Assembly: GCA_947650005.1 (NCBI GenBank) | Contig: CANSTU010000003.1 | Location: forward strand, 27,049 to 91,048 | Direction: 5' to 3' | From: an uncultured Lachnospiraceae bacterium | Lineage (GTDB): Bacteria; Bacillota; Clostridia; Lachnospirales; Lachnospiraceae | Length of the DNA stretch: 64,000 nucleotides | Shown: positions 2,509 to 64,000 of the stretch, in pieces | Numbering within the stretch: position 1 is the stretch's first letter | Layout: every line of letters begins with the position of its first letter | Made by a program: the position numbers and the translations under genes | The notes under the pieces: generated by a model | Told to the model about the DNA's origin: nothing | The model's database searches: none | The model's input: only the letters and a program-made list of their open reading frames with translations

Positions 2509-2511
2509 CGT

Positions 2512-2606
2512 TTACTCCCCTCTGCCTGCTTTTGCAGGCTCTCAATTCAAGAGGTTGAAAGCGTCCTTCTTTCAACTTACTCCCCTCTGCCTGCTTTTGC
2601 AGGCTC
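2512..2606 (-). repeat. Tandem stem-loop/SD element: [GCCTGC-AAAA-GCAGGC]AGAGGGGAG - hairpin GTTGAAAG/CTTTCAAC - [GCCTGCAAAAGCAGGC]AGAGGGGAG - ATG
   Basis: Read on the minus strand between the ATPase stop and the SBP start; related elements near 4.6, 11.9, 18.8, 32.2, 53.2, 57.8 and 63.7 kb. Confidence 0.8.
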
Positions 2607-3563
2607 TCATTCCTTTATTTCATTCAATCTTGCACAGGAGACGAAATGTCCGTTTTCTATTTCCTGCAGTTTCTGAGGCTGCATGCACTCCTCCCTCGCA
2701 TGGGGACATCTGGATACGAAACGGCAGCCCGGCTTCGGCTCGATGGGTGAGGTTACTTCTCCCTTCAGCAGGATCCTCTTCCTTTCCGCATGAATATCCG
2801 GAATGGGGATCGCCGAGAGCAGCGCCTTGGTATAGGGATGCATCGGATTGCGGAACAGCTCCTTTGTGGGGCTTTTCTCCACCAGCTGCCCCAGGTACAT
2901 CACGCATATCTCATCCGAGATGTGCCGTACCACGGACAGGTCATGGGTAATAAATACATAAGTAAGCTTTCGCTCTTCCTGTAGATCCTGCATCAGATTC
3001 AGGATCTGCGCTTGGATGGATACGTCCAGAGCGGATACGGGCTCATCGCAGACGACAAACTCCGGCCGAAGGGCCAGAGCCCTTGCGATGCCGATCCGCT
3101 GTCTCCTCCCTCCATCCAATTCATGGGGATAGGAATGGCGCAGCCTGGGGGCCAGGCCCACCGTATCCATCAGTTCGTCCGTCCGTTCCTCGATCTCCGC
3201 CTTACTGTAGCGTCCCGTAAGTAACAAGGGTTCGCTGATGGTGGCACTGGCGGTCATCCTGGGATTCAGGGAAGAAAAGGGATCCTGGAAAATGATCTGC
3301 ATGTTTTCCCGAAGACTTCTCAGTTTGTCTGAGGTCACATGGGTGATATCCTCTCCGTGAAACAGGATCTTTCCGTCTGTGCTTTCCAGCAGATGCAGGA
3401 CGGTCCTTCCGAAAGTGGATTTCCCACAGCCCGATTCGCCCACCACTCCAACCGTATTACCCTGCGGGATGGAAAAGCTGACATCATCCACGGCATGGAG
3501 CATTCCCCTGGGAGTTTTGAAATATTTTTTCAGATTCCGTACTTCAAGGATCGTTTCCATCAT
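2607..3563 (-). CDS. Oligopeptide/dipeptide ABC transporter ATP-binding protein (OppF/DppF type)
   Basis: Walker A GVVGESGCGKST, Walker B, C-terminal CRFVSRCPHA; start taken at MMETILEVRNLKKYF. Confidence 0.93.
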   Translation of the reverse strand: MMETILEVRNLKKYFKTPRGMLHAVDDVSFSIPQGNTVGVVGESGCGKSTFGRTVLHLLESTDGKILFHGEDITHVTSDKLRSLRENMQIIFQDPFSSLNPRMTASATISEPLLLTGRYSKAEIEERTDELMDTVGLAPRLRHSYPHELDGGRRQRIGIARALALRPEFVVCDEPVSALDVSIQAQILNLMQDLQEERKLTYVFITHDLSVVRHISDEICVMYLGQLVEKSPTKELFRNPMHPYTKALLSAIPIPDIHAERKRILLKGEVTSPIEPKPGCRFVSRCPHAREECMQPQKLQEIENGHFVSCARLNEIKE

Positions 3564-4552: not shown

Positions 4553-4622
4553 TTTTCTCCCATCTGCGTACAAGGCACGCATTCAAATCTTTATCCCTTC
4601 GGCCCGTCGTTTTAGCACAGGA

Positions 4623-7043: not shown

Positions 7044-7916
7044 TCACTCCTCTATAAAATGCTGCTTTATATAGTCCAAAAACTGCTGCGTTGCAAAAGA
7101 AAACGCCTTCTCCTCGGACCAAAAGATTTGGATATCCGTCATATGGCCGAATCCGTGCAGCGGGATTACCTTCAAAGCCGGGATATTCGAGTAAGTTTCT
7201 CTCCAACCGGTAGGAATAAAGCCAAAGGCCATCCCCTGAGAAAGATAATGCAACTTATAATAGGCCACATTGGTGGAAAAAATGCAGTGGGGAATGAATC
7301 CGTTTTCAATACAAATCCAGTACGCCCTTTCAAAGTCCCCTTTCTCGTTTCTCAGGAAACAGAATTTCTCTTCCCGCAAATCCGTGATAAAAAGCTCCTC
7401 CCTTTGCGCGAAAGGATGGCTGCGGGGCACCAAAACATAATATCCTCTCTCCTCCAGAGTAAAACTCTTTAAAGAAGCTGACAGCCTGGCATCCGCATTT
7501 CCAATTAGAAAATCATAGGAAGAGATCGCAAACGGCTCGTTCAGCGTACTTCCATATATATTGAATGAAACCTGAGGATTCTCCCTTCCAAACCGCTCAA
7601 TCAGGCTCAGAACCCTTTCGTTGAAATTTTGAAATGCAATCGAGATTTTACTCTCCGGAATCTCATGGCCGTAGGAGATCTTACACGCGTCTATCAGGTT
7701 CAGGATTTTACGCGTAGTGCTCAGAAAATATTTCCCGTAGTTATTCAGTACGATCTTTCTCCCATTCCTGTCAAAAAGCTGCGTACCCAATTCGTTTTCC
7801 AGTCTGATAATGGAGCTGCTTAGAGAGGGCTGGGATACATGCAGTTCCTCCGCCGCCTTTGAGACGTTCTCATGCTTTGCGATACATTCAAAATACTGAA
7901 GCTGCAATATCTCCAT
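7044..7916 (-). CDS. LysR family transcriptional regulator
   Basis: MEILQLQYFECIAKHENVSKAAEELHVSQPSLSSSIIRLENELGTQLFDRNGRKIVL. Confidence 0.95.
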   Translation of the reverse strand: MEILQLQYFECIAKHENVSKAAEELHVSQPSLSSSIIRLENELGTQLFDRNGRKIVLNNYGKYFLSTTRKILNLIDACKISYGHEIPESKISIAFQNFNERVLSLIERFGRENPQVSFNIYGSTLNEPFAISSYDFLIGNADARLSASLKSFTLEERGYYVLVPRSHPFAQREELFITDLREEKFCFLRNEKGDFERAYWICIENGFIPHCIFSTNVAYYKLHYLSQGMAFGFIPTGWRETYSNIPALKVIPLHGFGHMTDIQIFWSEEKAFSFATQQFLDYIKQHFIEE

Positions 7917-8351
7917 GTTTCCTCACATTCTGCCGCTGTAAACGGCGCCATAGCCAATCTAATTCTTCATGCCGCTCTTCTACGGCAGTACATCAGGAAG
8001 CTTCCGTTCCCATCTGCAATTCCATCCTTTTTATCCATTATATTTTGTCCACTCCAGTCTGTAAATGCTTTTCCGTCCATTTGGTAATACAGCAGTATTG
8101 AAACCGATATGCTCCCCCCCTCTGCCAGGATACCGCCCGGAGAGGGCTGTTTCAGAGGTTGGGAAGTACCTTTAAGCCTACTTTACTTCCCCGACGAGAC
8201 ACGGCTTATAAAGGCTGGCTTATAAGCTGAATCTATTTTGATATTAGACTTTTATTTCCAACTCCTATATAATGAATTCGGGATATTGCTCCTTTGGACT
8301 GTGGGCTCGGAAAACGGTACTGTCCTATATACTTTTTACTTAACAGGAGGT

Positions 8352-9833: not shown

Positions 9834-9935
9834 GTCTCATCCTTCCTTTCAGTTCTTATTCCCGGAAACGGTTCGTTTCTGTTTGCTCCCGTCTTCCCAC
9901 AAAAGCGGGCACTCAAAACAGGGAGAAGAAAAATA

Positions 9936-11621
9936 TTAATTTGTAATTTTATCTCTCCAGTCCACCTCTGGGCCCTCTTCTCCCTTTTGGATCACGACGA
10001 ATTTATTGTTCAGCATGGGATTCGTGAAGGGATAATCCACCCGATTATGTTTTCCCCGGGTCTCCTTACGCTCCATAGCACTGCAAAACGCCAGTTCCCC
10101 CACCAGGGCCAGGTCTTCCACCTCCAGGCATCTCATAAATTCGTGTCCGTCCGCACAATGAACGTCCTTCGCCTTTTCCTGAATTCGTTTCAAATGCCGT
10201 AAACCGGTGGTCAAAAGATGCTCGCTGCGCACATCTGAGCCGCAATAATCCGTCATCACCTGCTGAATTGCCACATTGATCTCTTTCCAGGATGGTGTGG
10301 CCGTATCAGCCTTCCGTTCCAGGATCCGACTATAGTGGGCAGCACGCTCTTCTACCACAGCCATATGTTCTGCCTCCACGATCCGCCCCGCTTCGCTATA
10401 TTTTGCCGCACTGATCCCCGCGATATGGCCAAAGGTGGCGGCGCCTCCCATGTCGGCCCGAAAATTTCCTGTCTCGTCACCCGCTGCAAAAAGGCCCAAA
10501 ACCGTACATTCCGCATCCACGGATATATCGATTCCCCCTCCAATGCCGCCGCCTTCCTTTCCGTCAAATTCCACCATATGTTTTCTGAAATCGAATCCCT
10601 CTTCCTTCAGATGATCCAGCGTACCAACGTTTCCTTCGTTAGTAAGCCCCCACAGCATATAGTCCAAATCCTCATCGGATACTTCGGAACAGTTCATGAA
10701 CACGGGTTCCCCCTGGGAACGTTTCAGGGAAAACATCTCCCGCCATACATCCCCTGCCAGATCTCCGTACTCCTTGGACGGTTTTGTGACAAATGGCCCA
10801 AGCGGCCTTCCATTCATATCGCTGTATACCCCAATCCACGTCGCCTTGCCGCCCCGGTTGAAATACTTACACCCAGCTCCGTTTCCGGTGAGATCCAGAT
10901 TCACCAGCCTCGCGCCGGCGCGATAAGCCGCAGCTCGCCCAGTACACACATTGGATGGACACCCGGCGCTGTTGAACATCCAGCCCATGGTTTTGGAGCC
11001 GAACAGACGATTCGCATTTCCTGTGGCGAGAATCACGCTTTTGGCACGGATGACCTGCATTCTGGGATATTCCTGCGTCAAGTCGATACAAATCCCTCCA
11101 ACGGCCCGCCCGTCCCCATCCGTTATCACCTCTGTAAACGGATGATGGTTCAGGATCGTAATGCCCCGCGCTGTGGCCTGCTTCGTAAAGATGATTTTCT
11201 GATCCTTTCCCGCATATTTCAACCATATGCGCAAATGGCCCGGTTTAGCATGTCCATTGAACTCCCAGTCCCCATGCTCCCGCATGCCCACGCCCCAGGC
11301 ATCCCAATCTTTGACACGTTCAAAGCATTCCGCAACATATCTGCGCACCAGATTCATGTCATTGTTTCCGCCCACCTGGGATTCGTTCATTTCTCGAATA
11401 AACTCGCCGGGATCCTCACCGTGCACCTCAGGGATATAGCAGAGAAAATGATCGTTCCCGGTAGCCCCGCAGCCGCTTCTCTTTGAATTAGCTTTTTCCG
11501 CCACAATAACCTTGGCACCCTGATCCGCCGCAGCGATCGCCGCCATCAGCCCGGCAACACCTCCTCCGGCCACAAGGACATCACATTCCAGCGGTACATT
11601 CCTTTCAATCTGTCCAGCCAT
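9936..11621 (-). CDS. FAD-dependent oxidoreductase (fumarate reductase / AprA-like flavoprotein)
   Basis: CDVLVAGGGVAGLMAAIAAADQGAKVIVAEK, ...GLFAAGDETGNF; start MAGQIERN with GAGGATTATT SD. Confidence 0.9.
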   Translation of the reverse strand: MAGQIERNVPLECDVLVAGGGVAGLMAAIAAADQGAKVIVAEKANSKRSGCGATGNDHFLCYIPEVHGEDPGEFIREMNESQVGGNNDMNLVRRYVAECFERVKDWDAWGVGMREHGDWEFNGHAKPGHLRIWLKYAGKDQKIIFTKQATARGITILNHHPFTEVITDGDGRAVGGICIDLTQEYPRMQVIRAKSVILATGNANRLFGSKTMGWMFNSAGCPSNVCTGRAAAYRAGARLVNLDLTGNGAGCKYFNRGGKATWIGVYSDMNGRPLGPFVTKPSKEYGDLAGDVWREMFSLKRSQGEPVFMNCSEVSDEDLDYMLWGLTNEGNVGTLDHLKEEGFDFRKHMVEFDGKEGGGIGGGIDISVDAECTVLGLFAAGDETGNFRADMGGAATFGHIAGISAAKYSEAGRIVEAEHMAVVEERAAHYSRILERKADTATPSWKEINVAIQQVMTDYCGSDVRSEHLLTTGLRHLKRIQEKAKDVHCADGHEFMRCLEVEDLALVGELAFCSAMERKETRGKHNRVDYPFTNPMLNNKFVVIQKGEEGPEVDWRDKITN

Positions 11622-11896
11622 AATAATCCTCCATGGTTGATGCACCTGCGAATTTGGGCGCAAGCACAAATTTTCCTGTGAAAATCCTATTTTTCACAGT
11701 TTCCTCTTCCTTTCTTTGGTCTGCCGTCCGATGCATCGATGACTGCAACAAATATCTGTCTTACATTATAATTATAAAATCCGCCTGTCGTAATGTCTAA
11801 TACCTTATCCCGATCACTTTATAACCCCTTGGCTATATCGTTTTCATTTATGGCGCGCGCAGATCAGGGAGGCCGAAAATTTCAATTCTATTCTTG

Positions 11897-12003
11897 GCTC
11901 CCATCTGCGCGCTTTAACGCGTGTAATCTTATACCCATCCGCATTTTAGCACGCACTCAAATCAGGAGGATTGAAAATGCCAATTTTCAATCTTATACCC
12001 CTG
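11897..12003 (-). repeat. Cluster of stem-loop/SD elements without an adjacent start codon
   Basis: Minus strand: GATTGAAAATtggcATTTTCAATCCTCCTGATTTGAGTGCGTGCTAAAATGCGGATGGG...ACGCGTTAAAGCGCGCAGATGGGAG. Confidence 0.65.
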
Positions 12004-17071: not shown

Positions 17072-18820
17072 TTATTCCACATCCTGTAACGCCGCAAAAT
17101 CTTCCTCTCCTGTACGGACCTTCACGACCCTATCCACCTGGTATACAAAAATCTTTCCATCACCGATATGGCCTGTATACAATACCTTCTTGGCCGCTTC
17201 TATCACCATATCCACTGGGATTTTGCTGACTACAACCTCCACCTTTACTTTGGGCAGGAGGGTCGCATCCATTTCCACGCCGCGGTACATTTCCCCGGCG
17301 CCTTTCTGCACACCGCATCCCATAACCTGTGTGACGGTCATGCCCGTAACGCCCAGCTCGTTCATGGCCTTCTTCAAATGATCATACCGGGACAGCTTTG
17401 CGATGATGACCACCTTATGGATGTCTGCGGCGTTGACTGTCGGCATTTCTACCACCTTGACAGCGGCATCCTTCTGCGCTTTAGAGGCCTGAGCATAATC
17501 CTGCGTACCCAAATCCGTATTTTCATTCACTTCCATGGTCATCGTGTTGGAAACATCCATGATACTGAATCCGGAATAGGCAGAGGCAAGACCATGTTCA
17601 CAGGAATCCAGTCCCACAATCTCCTCCTCTTCACTTACGCGCAGCCCCACAGCCAAACGAATTGCCAGAAAAGTGACCGTAATCAGAACCACGGTCCAGG
17701 CCGCTACTGCCCCGACTCCCAGAAGCTGCAGGCCCAGCTGACGCAGGCCGCCGCCATAAAACAGGCCTACAACGCTGTCATTTCCTGGAGCTGAAGCGGT
17801 AGCGAACAATCCAACTGCGATAGTTCCCCAGATTCCGTTGAGGCAGTGTACAGCTACCGCCCCCACAGGATCATCCACATGCAGCCTATGGTCCAAGAGC
17901 CAGACGCCGAACACCACCAACAGCCCTGCCACAGCGCCGATCACCGTTGCACCCAGGGCATCCGTCACATCACAAGGGGCCGTAATGGCCACCAACCCTG
18001 CCAGAGACGCGTTTAGGCACATGGACACATCCGGTTTCTTGTACTTTATCCAGGTAAATACCATGCAGACCACGGTGGCAATGGCAGGCGCAATGGTTGT
18101 GGTGAGGAATACAGACCCCAGCTGGCTCAGAGAGGTACATGCCGCCCCGTTAAAACCGTACCAGCCCAGCCAAAGGATGAACACTCCCAGACAACCAATG
18201 GGAAGGTTATGGCCTGGAAAAGCATTTACCTTCGCCACCTTTCTGTCCTTATCCCGGGTAAACTTCCCGATCCGAGGCCCCAAGATCGCCGCACCCACCA
18301 GTGCGGAAATACCGCCCACCATATGAATTGCACAGGAACCTGCAAAATCATGGAAACCGAGCTGCGCTAGCCAGCCGCCGCCCCAAATCCAGTGCGCCTC
18401 TATAGGATAGATCAGGGCGGAAATCACGCCGGAATAGATACAATAGGACAGAAATTTCGTCCGTTCCGCCATGGCGCCGGAAACAATGGTCGCCGTGGTC
18501 GCGCAGAACACCAAGTTGAAAACAAAATTAGAAAAATCAAAGTTGGCGTAATCCGTAAAAATATCAAAGCCAGGTTTCCCGATCACCCCTGCCATATCTT
18601 CTCCCAGCAGCAGGCCAAATCCGACCAGCACAAACACCACTGTACCGATACAGAAATCCATAAGGTTTTTCATTAGGATATTTCCCGCATTCTTGGCCCT
18701 TGTAAATCCGGTCTCCACCATTGCAAACCCAGCCTGCATCCAGAATACCAGCGCTGCACCAATCAAGAACCAGACGCCGAACACTTCTCCGCTCACGACA
18801 CTCATAATCTCCTCAGACAT
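17072..18820 (-). CDS. amt: Ammonium transporter fused to a C-terminal PII (GlnB/GlnK) domain
   Basis: Amt core (AGFAMVETGFTRAKNAGNILMKN) followed by HKVVIIAKLSRYDHLKKAMNELGVTGMTVTQVMGCGVQKGAGEMYRG...YTGHIGDGKIFVYQVDRVVKVRTGE. Confidence 0.95.
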   Translation of the reverse strand: MSEEIMSVVSGEVFGVWFLIGAALVFWMQAGFAMVETGFTRAKNAGNILMKNLMDFCIGTVVFVLVGFGLLLGEDMAGVIGKPGFDIFTDYANFDFSNFVFNLVFCATTATIVSGAMAERTKFLSYCIYSGVISALIYPIEAHWIWGGGWLAQLGFHDFAGSCAIHMVGGISALVGAAILGPRIGKFTRDKDRKVAKVNAFPGHNLPIGCLGVFILWLGWYGFNGAACTSLSQLGSVFLTTTIAPAIATVVCMVFTWIKYKKPDVSMCLNASLAGLVAITAPCDVTDALGATVIGAVAGLLVVFGVWLLDHRLHVDDPVGAVAVHCLNGIWGTIAVGLFATASAPGNDSVVGLFYGGGLRQLGLQLLGVGAVAAWTVVLITVTFLAIRLAVGLRVSEEEEIVGLDSCEHGLASAYSGFSIMDVSNTMTMEVNENTDLGTQDYAQASKAQKDAAVKVVEMPTVNAADIHKVVIIAKLSRYDHLKKAMNELGVTGMTVTQVMGCGVQKGAGEMYRGVEMDATLLPKVKVEVVVSKIPVDMVIEAAKKVLYTGHIGDGKIFVYQVDRVVKVRTGEEDFAALQDVE

Positions 18821-18886
18821 TTTTACTCCCATCTGCCCGCCTTAACGGGCCCTCAAATCAGGGAGATTGAAACGAAGTTTCAATCT
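18821..18886 (-). repeat. Stem-loop/SD element with upstream hairpin
   Basis: AGATTGAAACttcGTTTCAATCT-CCCTGATTTGAG-GGCCCGTTAAGGCGGGC-AGATGGGAGTAAAA-ATG. Confidence 0.75.
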
Positions 18887-30746: not shown

Positions 30747-32190
30747 TTATTCCTGCCATACGCCGGCATCCTTCAATGCCTGGATCTGCTGCTGCTTCAC
30801 TTCCGCCGTCGCCGCTTCGATATCGGAAATGAGCAGAGAACGGATCCCTTCTGCGTCAAGGCCTTGCTGCAGGCCGGAGTTCACTGAGCTGTAGATGCAG
30901 CCCTCTGCAGTGGTATCCATCATGGTGGTAACAACCGGCTTGATGTCCGCCGCAATGTCAGCGGCCAGGGATTTGGGTGTAGGGGTCTGGTTGCCAAAGT
31001 AAGCATCGGGCGCTTCATAGATGGAAGCGTCTTCCCATGCAGGTTTATAAGCGGGATAATAGTCCACTGCTTCAAACATGGCATTCTGCCCTTCCACGGT
31101 CGCCAGCATATAGGTCACAAATGCCCAAGCTGCTTCCTTATTCTCACTGCTTTCCGGAATAACCAGGAAAGAACCGCCCCAATTGGAGCTTGCAATGTTG
31201 CCGTAGAGTTTAGCCGCACCCCAATGGCCTGATCCTTCCGGATCAATATCCTTCTTCAGGAAACCACCGAACCAGGAACCCGTCGCCACGGATGCGCAGG
31301 AACCGTCCGCATAGGCCGCATAGGCCTCCGTGGACCACATATCCACGTTCATATCCCAGCCGTTCTCACGCATTTTGATCACCGCATTCAGACAGTCCAG
31401 ATCGCCGTCCCGTTCCACCTGAAGCTCCAGGTTTTCGTTGTAATAGTCCCTGTTACAGAACATCAGGAAGTACAGGTAAGAGGCATCCGGAAGAAGCCAT
31501 CTTTGCCCCGGAACGTAAACCTTTTCCGCCGCTTCCAACACGCCGTCCCAGGTACTCATCATTTCGGCCACCTCAGTAGGGTCAGTTGGCAGACCGCATT
31601 CTTCAAATACATCCGTGCGGTAGAAATACTGGGCCGGGCCGATATCCCAGGGAAGAGCCACCAGCCTCTCTCCGTCTGAAGAGATCGCCTGATTCCATTT
31701 AAACTCCACAAAATCATCCTTGATGCTGTCAGCGCCCAGGCTCCTTAAGTCTGCCAGGGCCTTAGAATCCCTATACTGTGCGATGTATGCGCCCTCCACC
31801 ATGGCTACGTCAAAGTCACCACTGCCCGCTGCAAGGGAGGTCTGCAGGGCCTGATGATGCGCCGTGGTATCTGTAAACTGCAATTCCACCTCTATGTTGG
31901 GGTATTTTTCCTGAAATCCTGGAAGCGCCGCCTCAAAAGCATCGTCGCCTGAAGGCCAGCCGCCCACCACGATGGATCCGGAAATGGAAGAATCCCCTGC
32001 GGAAGCATCCACTGCTGCATCCCCTCCGGAATTGTCGGAAGAGGCATCTTCGTCGTTTACCTCAATACCCCCCCCCGGATGAATTTGACGCGCTCTGGGA
32101 ACCGGAATTCCCGCAGCCAGCCAGCAGGGAAGCCCCCATGGTCAAGGTAAGGGACAGGGCCAGCAGTTTTTTCACATGTTCACTTCTCAT
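30747..32190 (-). CDS. Carbohydrate ABC transporter substrate-binding lipoprotein, out of frame at a G9 tract (32068-32076)
   Basis: ATG at 32190 gives MRSEHVKKLLALSLTLTMGASLLAGCGNSGSQSASNSSGGGY*; the remaining SBP ORF 30747..32012 lies in another frame, restored if the G tract were 8 or 11 nt. Confidence 0.85.
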
Positions 32191-32199
32191 TTCAATCAT

Positions 32200-32297
32200 G
32201 CTCCTTTCCGCGTGCTTTTGCACGCTCTCAAATCAGGGCGGCGGAAAGCGTCCTTCTTTCCGCCTTGCTCCCTTCTGCCGCCCTTCCAGGCAGCTGT
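32200..32297 (-). repeat. Tandem stem-loop/SD element between lacI-type and SBP genes
   Basis: GCTGCC..GGCGGC-AGAAGGGAGCAA-GGCGGAAAGaaggacgCTTTCCGCC-GCCCTGATTTGAGA-GCGTGCAAAAGCACGC-GGAAAGGAG. Confidence 0.8.
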
Positions 32298-35847: not shown

Positions 35848-35965
35848 GTTGCCTCGCAATCTGCCGCCAAAGGCGGGCTTTCCCTCCCCTTTACCGCTGC
35901 CACAGTTCCATTCGGCATCAAGGGGGAAGCCGAACTGTTCTCACGCCTGTCGTGTTGTAACAAAA

Positions 35966-45962: not shown

Positions 45963-46257
45963 TCTAACCTTCCTGCCCGTTTCAGCGGGCGTAAATTCAT
46001 GGCCAGGAAATAACTGCCATACGATTTCTCAGCCAATCTGCGCTTGCCCGCTTCAGCGGACATTCTCTTGTGCATAGCTATTGCGATAATTATATAACGC
46101 AATCATGCGCATTCTGCTCTCGTTTGAATCACTGTTTCTTATTATATTGTTTTACTAAATAGAAATCAATATGAATTCTCTGAAATTATCAGGCAATCTA
46201 TAAAAGATTTATTAACTTTTTTATAGAAAACTGTGGATTTTTTTCCTCCAGACGTTG

Positions 46258-50628: not shown

Positions 50629-50715
50629 ATTCCCTCTCATTCTGCCGCCGCAAAAGGCTCTCCGTTTAGGGATCTTTTTCCTCCCGCTGTCCATCCCCCT
50701 CAAGCGGCAGCATCC

Positions 50716-53189: not shown

Positions 53190-53270
53190 GCTTACTCCCA
53201 TCTGCCCGCCTCATCGGGCATACAAATCGGGTAAAAATAACTTCGCCTCCTGTGAAATTGAAGATTTCAC
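53190..53270 (-). repeat. Stem-loop/SD element between citD and citE
   Basis: GTGAAATctTCAATTTCAC-AGGAGGCGAAGTTATTTTTACCCGATTTGTAT-GCCCGATGAGGCGGGC-AGATGGGAGTAAGC-ATG. Confidence 0.75.
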
Positions 53271-57784: not shown

Positions 57785-57893
57785 TTTGCTCCCCTCTGCC
57801 CGCTTTAGCGGGCGCTTATATCAGGGAGGTTGAAAGCGCCTTTCTTTCAACCTTGCTCCCCTCTGCCCGCTTCAGCGGGCACTCACATCATAT
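57785..57893 (-). repeat. Tandem stem-loop/SD element between permease genes
   Basis: GCCCGCTGAAGCGGGC-AGAGGGGAGCAA-GGTTGAAAGaaaggcgCTTTCAACC-TCCCTGATATAAGC-GCCCGCTAAAGCGGGC-AGAGGGGAGCAAA-ATG. Confidence 0.85.
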
Positions 57894-63720: not shown

Positions 63721-63800
63721 TTTTAGCTCCCATCTGCGCGCTTTAGCGCGTATACAAATCAGAGGAATTCCATCTGTGCGCCTTAGTATGCATACAAATT
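63721..63800 (-). repeat. Stem-loop/SD element with a degenerate upstream copy
   Basis: CTCTGATTTGTATAC-GCGCTAAAGCGCGC-AGATGGGAGCTAAAA-ATG; further upstream AATTTGTATGCATACTAAGGCGCACAGATGGAA. Confidence 0.7.
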
Positions 63801-64000
63801 AAGGGGATTCCGTCTGTGAAGCAACCTGTTTCTGCTTCTTTACTCCTATCATATCCAAAAGCAGCCCAAAAATCAACTGTACTTTGACGGCCGCCATCAG
63901 GCCAACAGATTTGAAACCGATGCGCCCGCCCTGCCAGGATTGTGCCAGGAGAGAAGCGGCCTAGGGACAGGAAGTGGCGGCGCACCATATTTCCGCCCGC

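Follow-up and report, generated by a model that had tools for sequence, protein, structure and literature searches.

The genome of this Lachnospiraceae bacterium (G000, 3.59 Mb) harbours a family of short palindromic repeats, which we term A1, that are probably non-autonomous mobile elements landing in the gap between the Shine–Dalgarno sequence (SD) and the start codon and taking over translation initiation. In the model that we favour, a unit of REP or MITE size would insert just 3′ of an existing SD, ahead of the start codon, oriented so that the end carrying its own SD (AGATGGGAG) lies next to the ATG. Translation of the gene would continue on this substitute SD, which is correctly spaced (6–7 nt after GGGA), and the old SD would remain as a fossil. 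Since the new SD–ATG gap would again be a target, tandem and nested stacks of A1, of its sister families A2, A3 and A5, and of others would build up. We analysed a 64-kb window (the whole stretch of DNA under study) together with samples of G000 (849 kb) and of a sister species, G002 (465 kb), taken as stretches picked partly for holding copies.

Architecture and pairing of A1

A1 has the layout CTCCCTGATTTG-NNN-stem-TAAA-stem-CAGATGGGAG, and 61 genomic copies yield a consensus of approximately CTCCCTGATTTGAATGCCCGCTAAAGCGGGCAGATGGGAGCAAA. The core measures about 40 bp, and units reach 63–67 bp with a second hairpin, GATTGAAA..TTTCAATC, which often lies 5′ of the core and also occurs between tandem units. 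Complementarity of CTCCC and GGGAG within A1 forms an outer helix; both this helix and the hairpin between tandem units had escaped an earlier, sequence-only reading of the window. In the consensus, the A1 hairpin is followed by AGATGGGAGC with no U-run, which is not the form of an intrinsic terminator.

Covarying stems, which the sequence-only reading had described in a handful of copies, were borne out in the larger set. In the inner stem, 94.8% of cells were paired, with many two-sided changes, including C-G/G-C and C-G/U-A swaps. The outer helix was 81% paired and changed mainly on the non-SD side; the termini of A1, CTCCC/GGGAG with ATTTG/CAGAT, are imperfect and show few double changes. 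In the second hairpin, a copy's own arms matched at 8/9 or better in 54 of 119 copies, compared with a maximum of 20 when arms were exchanged. Where both species have A1 at an orthologous start, the stem differs on both sides; examples are GCCTGC/GCAGGC becoming GCGTGC/GCACGC (before uxaC) and GCCCGC/GCGGGC becoming GCGCGC/GCGCGC. From the alignment alone, RNAalifold recovered three inner pairs and no more. Subfamilies or palindrome correction would also suffice to produce covariation among repeat copies, which alone is no proof of RNA function. Hairpins of any kind are frequent before starts in relatives lacking A1 too (18% versus 8% in shuffled sequence), so hairpins alone are not evidence. 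An array of A1 cores at 14.25–14.47 kb of another locus (L047) has a 38-nt period; its inner units are without the stem (GCGTTAAAGAATG), which is kept only in the last core, before the start codon.

Placement at start codons

The exact tail CAGATGGGAG occurs 237 times genome-wide in G000, compared with 3 times for the reversed control, and 177 times in G002, 14–56 times in other genus members and usually less often beyond. A covariance model found A1 in 9 of the 13 genus members searched and, at low copy, in five other genera, where nearly all inspected copies in the low-copy genomes adjoin starts of unrelated genes. A profile search of the 849 kb of G000 detected 182 A1 copies in 128 clusters. 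The enrichment at start codons that the sequence-only reading had led us to expect was evident: the last copy adjoins a start codon and open reading frame in 86 of the 128 clusters (67%), at a GGGA-to-start distance of 6–7 nt in 66 of the 84 cases tallied, and a non-last copy has a start codon in one cluster only. Within the first 464 kb, a start and reading frame follow 60 of 117 copies (22% in a random control). Orientation is similarly biased, with the downstream gene on the same strand in 151 of 175 cases versus around half in the background.

In the window, A1 units lie on the minus strand at 2.5 (two), 4.56, 9.9, 11.9 (two), 18.8, 32.2, 53.2, 57.8 (two) and 63.7 kb (two). The stem-loop/SD cassette proposed in the sequence-only reading proved real, with every A1 site that it listed recovered and the copies at 57.8, 53.2, 18.8, 32.2, 4.56 and 63.7 kb as it described them, and the family is larger than was noted there. 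Its two copies at 2.5 kb are tandem units that both carry CAGAGGGGAG, but only the second adjoins a start. The upstream unit (2577..2609; stem GCCTGCAAAAGCAGGC at 2604–2589, CAGAGGGGAG at 2589–2580) adjoins no start codon; after it comes the second hairpin belonging to its neighbour, a composite unit (2511..2576; hairpin GTTGAAAG..CTTTCAAC, stem GCCTGCAAAAGCAGGC at 2539–2524, SD tail CAGAGGGGAG at 2524–2515) from which 6 nt lead to ATG 2508 of an oligopeptide ABC substrate-binding protein. Single units precede ATG 4552 of an OppD-like ATPase (4554..4589; stem 4581–4565, CAGATGGGAG 4566–4557), ATG 53189 of a CitE-like protein (53192..53232; stem 53220–53203, CAGATGGGAG 53204–53195) and a lipoprotein-like reading frame (32199..32255; altered stems GGCGGAAAG/CTTTCCGCC and GCGTGC/GCACGC, SD GGAAAGGAG). 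Tandem units separated by a second hairpin (57785..57890; stems 57881–57864 and 57813–57798) lie before ATG 57784 of a sugar ABC permease, and two units, the upstream one degenerate (63723..63808; stem 63750–63737, CAGATGGGAG 63736–63727), before ATG 63720 of a YitT-like protein. A degenerate unit (9882..9940) and two degenerate tandem units (11894..11984, comprising 11984–11934 and 11924–11894), the first of which comes after an A5-type tail, CGATATGCAGGGGTATAA, adjoin no start codon; these copies and that at 63808–63770 are additions to the sequence-only reading.

That reading had also listed weaker relatives before the starts at 7916, 35847, 45962 and 50628. These are members of distinct families, A2 (motif GGCAGAATGNGAGG) and A3 (motif GGGCAGGAAGG), rather than decayed A1 copies. 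On the minus strand, A2 units precede ATG 7916 of a LysR-type regulator (GCCGTTTACAGCGGCAGAATGTGAGG, 7921..7946) and ATG 35847 (35852..35876; stem CCGCC/GGCGG, GGCAGATTGCGAGG), an A2 tail (GGCAGAATGAGAGG, 50633..50646) precedes ATG 50628, and an A3 unit (GCCCGCTGAAACGGGCAGGAAGG, 45968..46013) precedes ATG 45962 of FtsH. High copy numbers of A2 are restricted to G000 and G002, the two genomes that also hold nearly all A5 copies.

Untargeted REP- or MITE-like insertion anywhere in intergenic DNA, with selection and decay leaving mainly the SD-providing copies at starts, is an unlikely explanation of this placement. It would account for the mostly intergenic location of A1 (155 of the 182 copies in the 849 kb), as in ordinary repeat families, and for the 42 of 128 clusters without an adjoining start, around 14 of which, judged by eye, precede another SD-bearing unit and then a start; moreover, an insert carrying an SD would be tolerated in the SD–ATG gap, where others would silence the gene. 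However, sites farther upstream or downstream should be equally tolerable and should outnumber a gap of <10 nt, yet this gap holds 67% of A1 clusters and 39 of 40 A2 copies (25/26 and 14/14), the latter at about 4 nt from the start.

Starts were called by the ORF finder at 18832 and 53201, where an ATG lies within AGATGGGAG of A1, and at 4582, where one lies within the A1 hairpin; the correct starts are likely to be 18820, 53189 and 4552, respectively. Since the ATG of AGATGGGAG can mislead gene finders, annotated starts may be wrong.

The window and sampled loci contain other features. The reading frame at 17072–18832 fuses an ammonium transporter with a P-II regulatory domain (Amt-PII), and orthologues of equal length occur in many Lachnospiraceae. 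At about 32.06 kb (minus strand), a lipoprotein-like substrate-binding gene contains a run of nine Gs and then an in-frame stop, with the remainder of the gene (30747–32012) in another frame, reflecting an assembly error or possibly phase variation. Another dispersed hairpin-forming repeat, of about 100 nt and with the core CGCTTCCCAGTC..GGGAAGCAGGTC, lies at about 34.8 kb (minus strand); it has 15 copies in the 849 kb of G000 (the window and 14 other places) and no Rfam match in the window. Locus L041 carries, from 16193, a CRISPR-like array of about 22 copies of TCCTCTGTGTAGAGGAAGTGGA.

Filled sites, fossil SDs and nesting

Comparison of G000 with G002 revealed five pairs of filled and empty orthologous sites, with inserts of three families, each located between the old SD and the ATG and carrying its own SD. 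At the Amt-PII gene, a 63-bp A1 composite unit (18822..18886, minus strand) lies in the window between the old SD GAGGAGG and ATG 18820, whereas G002 and L051–L054 have an empty site, GAGGAGG..ATG. The remaining pairs comprise an A1 unit within the SD–ATG gap of A5 (L037 t8643 versus L159), a two-unit A1 insertion in G002 (L161 versus L041), an A5 insertion in G002 (L034 versus L156) and an insertion of a further family in G002 (L037 t881 versus L139). The set is small, five from one species pair, of which two concern sister families instead of A1, and outgroups (L051–L054) set the polarity for Amt-PII only. Boundaries of the five pairs are ambiguous by 1–5 shared nt (A-runs, AG, ATT), with no clear target-site duplication, and in clean pairs the flanking upstream sequence is preserved to either side of the insert. 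That all five unit insertions between the sister species fall in the SD–ATG gap argues against untargeted insertion. Transposition, with the SD as its target, would be the process in our model.

Traces of older SDs were found directly 5′ of units and likewise speak against untargeted insertion. SD-like 4-mers occupy this position in 30 of 38 units, versus 3–6 of 38 further upstream, and in 25 of 46 core-only units, versus 6–12 of 46. This excess depends on the choice of boundary (CCCTG core and hairpin end); an earlier test with poorly defined unit boundaries gave no excess for core-only units (8/74 versus 15% in the control). Nesting goes either way, with A5 preceding A1 or following it. Stacks with upstream SD-like 4-mers are what repeated insertion into the newest SD–ATG gap would leave.

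Searches for a mobility enzyme were negative. Among 13 genus genomes, Y1_Tnp (PF01797) was absent from both high-copy genomes, G000 and G002, and present in six low-copy members; RAYT/IS200 mobilisation of A1 was rejected because the domain is missing from both high-copy genomes. A multi-copy protein search of the sampled stretches (849 kb in G000, 465 kb in G002) yielded no multi-copy transposase or transposon partner. A strict consensus pattern matched 0 viral contigs, and a phage origin was set aside on this basis. The absence of a transposase from these searches would suit ectopic gene conversion or template switching, in which homology at SD-like ends would allow a hairpin–SD leader to be copied from gene to gene without a transposase. 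Such copying could also explain the mixed-family leaders at orthologous genes, and slippage fits the tandem units; template switching readily occurs at palindromes and could keep stems matched without selection at the RNA level. We nevertheless regard it as improbable, given that clean pairs preserve the upstream sequence flanking the insert on either side and that homology at an SD amounts to only about 5 nt.

More improbable still is an immobile regulatory RNA that is inherited vertically, either as a translational regulon or as a processing site. The conserved covarying structure, start-codon position and strand specificity are all compatible with it, and a switch is conceivable, as either GGGAG, new or old, can serve as the pairing partner of CTCCC; predictions of such an old/new SD switch gave a mixed outcome in ten units. 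Against it stand the filled and empty sites and the downstream genes: the Pfam families of 20 proteins encoded downstream of A1 are diverse and functionally unrelated, on which ground a regulon was rejected. Among sister orthologues of A1-served G000 genes, 8 of 25 have A1, and often another family or a plain SD takes its place. The Rfam comparison that the sequence-only reading had suggested matched no known family at the gathering threshold in the window and gave only chance-level matches in seven loci, which led us to dismiss a known RNA family.

Consequences and relation to known repeats

If non-autonomous units do take over initiation, ribosomes would use the new SD. We infer a translational effect and go no further, because folding shows no unusual openness of the new SD (predicted accessibility 0.37 versus 0.43 with a shuffled leader). 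On this reading, repeats would have replaced the ribosome-binding sites of as many as roughly one in ten genes, counting A1, A2, A3 and A5; this figure derives from 86 A1-served starts in 849 kb, or about 360 scaled to the genome, and such per-genome rates are upper-end estimates, likely high because the stretches were picked partly for copies. Small mobile elements would maintain themselves by usurping an essential signal, which would account for leader turnover between sister species and amount to a natural experiment on the control of translation by SD sequence and leader structure. A bolder proposal, which we offer only tentatively, is that these repeats represent a class of mobile elements that target the ribosome-binding site itself, with several unrelated-looking families homing to the SD–start gap, each bringing a new SD, and a sizeable share of genes initiating on transposed sites. 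Such elements may recognise the SD as a DNA sequence or, more radically, find their target at the level of the mRNA or initiation complex.

The sequence-only reading had proposed either a family-wide module of translation initiation or mRNA processing or a REP-like, SD-supplying element. The latter gains support from the many dispersed copies, from their arrangement in tandem and nested arrays and from the filled and empty orthologous sites. The likeness lies in a short palindrome at high copy; it does not extend to the RAYT type, as Y1_Tnp is absent from both high-copy genomes. A literature search, with most subscription journals outside its scope, returned no description of such elements, and both the landing place in the SD–ATG gap and the SD cargo are undescribed for the known small bacterial repeats compared, within the portions of those sources drawn on here.

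Like A1, REP elements (GTAG-/CGTC-tagged; PMC3733652) and REPINs (PMC3116915) have a 20–40-bp palindromic core, hundreds of intergenic copies, several families per genome, tandem arrangement and possible hairpins once transcribed. A1 differs in lying at start codons, with fixed strand and an SD, whereas the REPs of Di Nocera et al. 2013 (PMC3733652) are found close to the 3′ ends of ORFs, and, unlike RAYT-associated REPs, it has no GTAG/CGTC tag in its consensus (the conserved tail is AGATGGGAG) and no RAYT in the high-copy genomes. MITEs and other small repeats (Correia/NEMIS, ERIC, RUP), as covered in parts of two reviews (PMC2229807, PMC10969869), share with A1 small size, non-autonomy, filled and empty sites and RNA stem-loops. 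The imperfect ends of A1, CTCCC(TG)ATTTG and CAGATGGGAG, may correspond to the terminal inverted repeats of MITEs. A1 differs in having no TA ends; no clear target duplication was seen, no parent insertion sequence was found in the sampled parts, and the SD-to-ATG placement is undescribed in those parts of the reviews. For the pneumococcal BOX, RUP and SPRITE repeats, the portions used of Croucher et al. 2011 (PMC3049150) describe neither SD supply nor start-codon targeting, in which A1 differs; like A1, these comprise several families in one Gram-positive genome, form modular composites with one family inserted in another and appear to spread without a host function.
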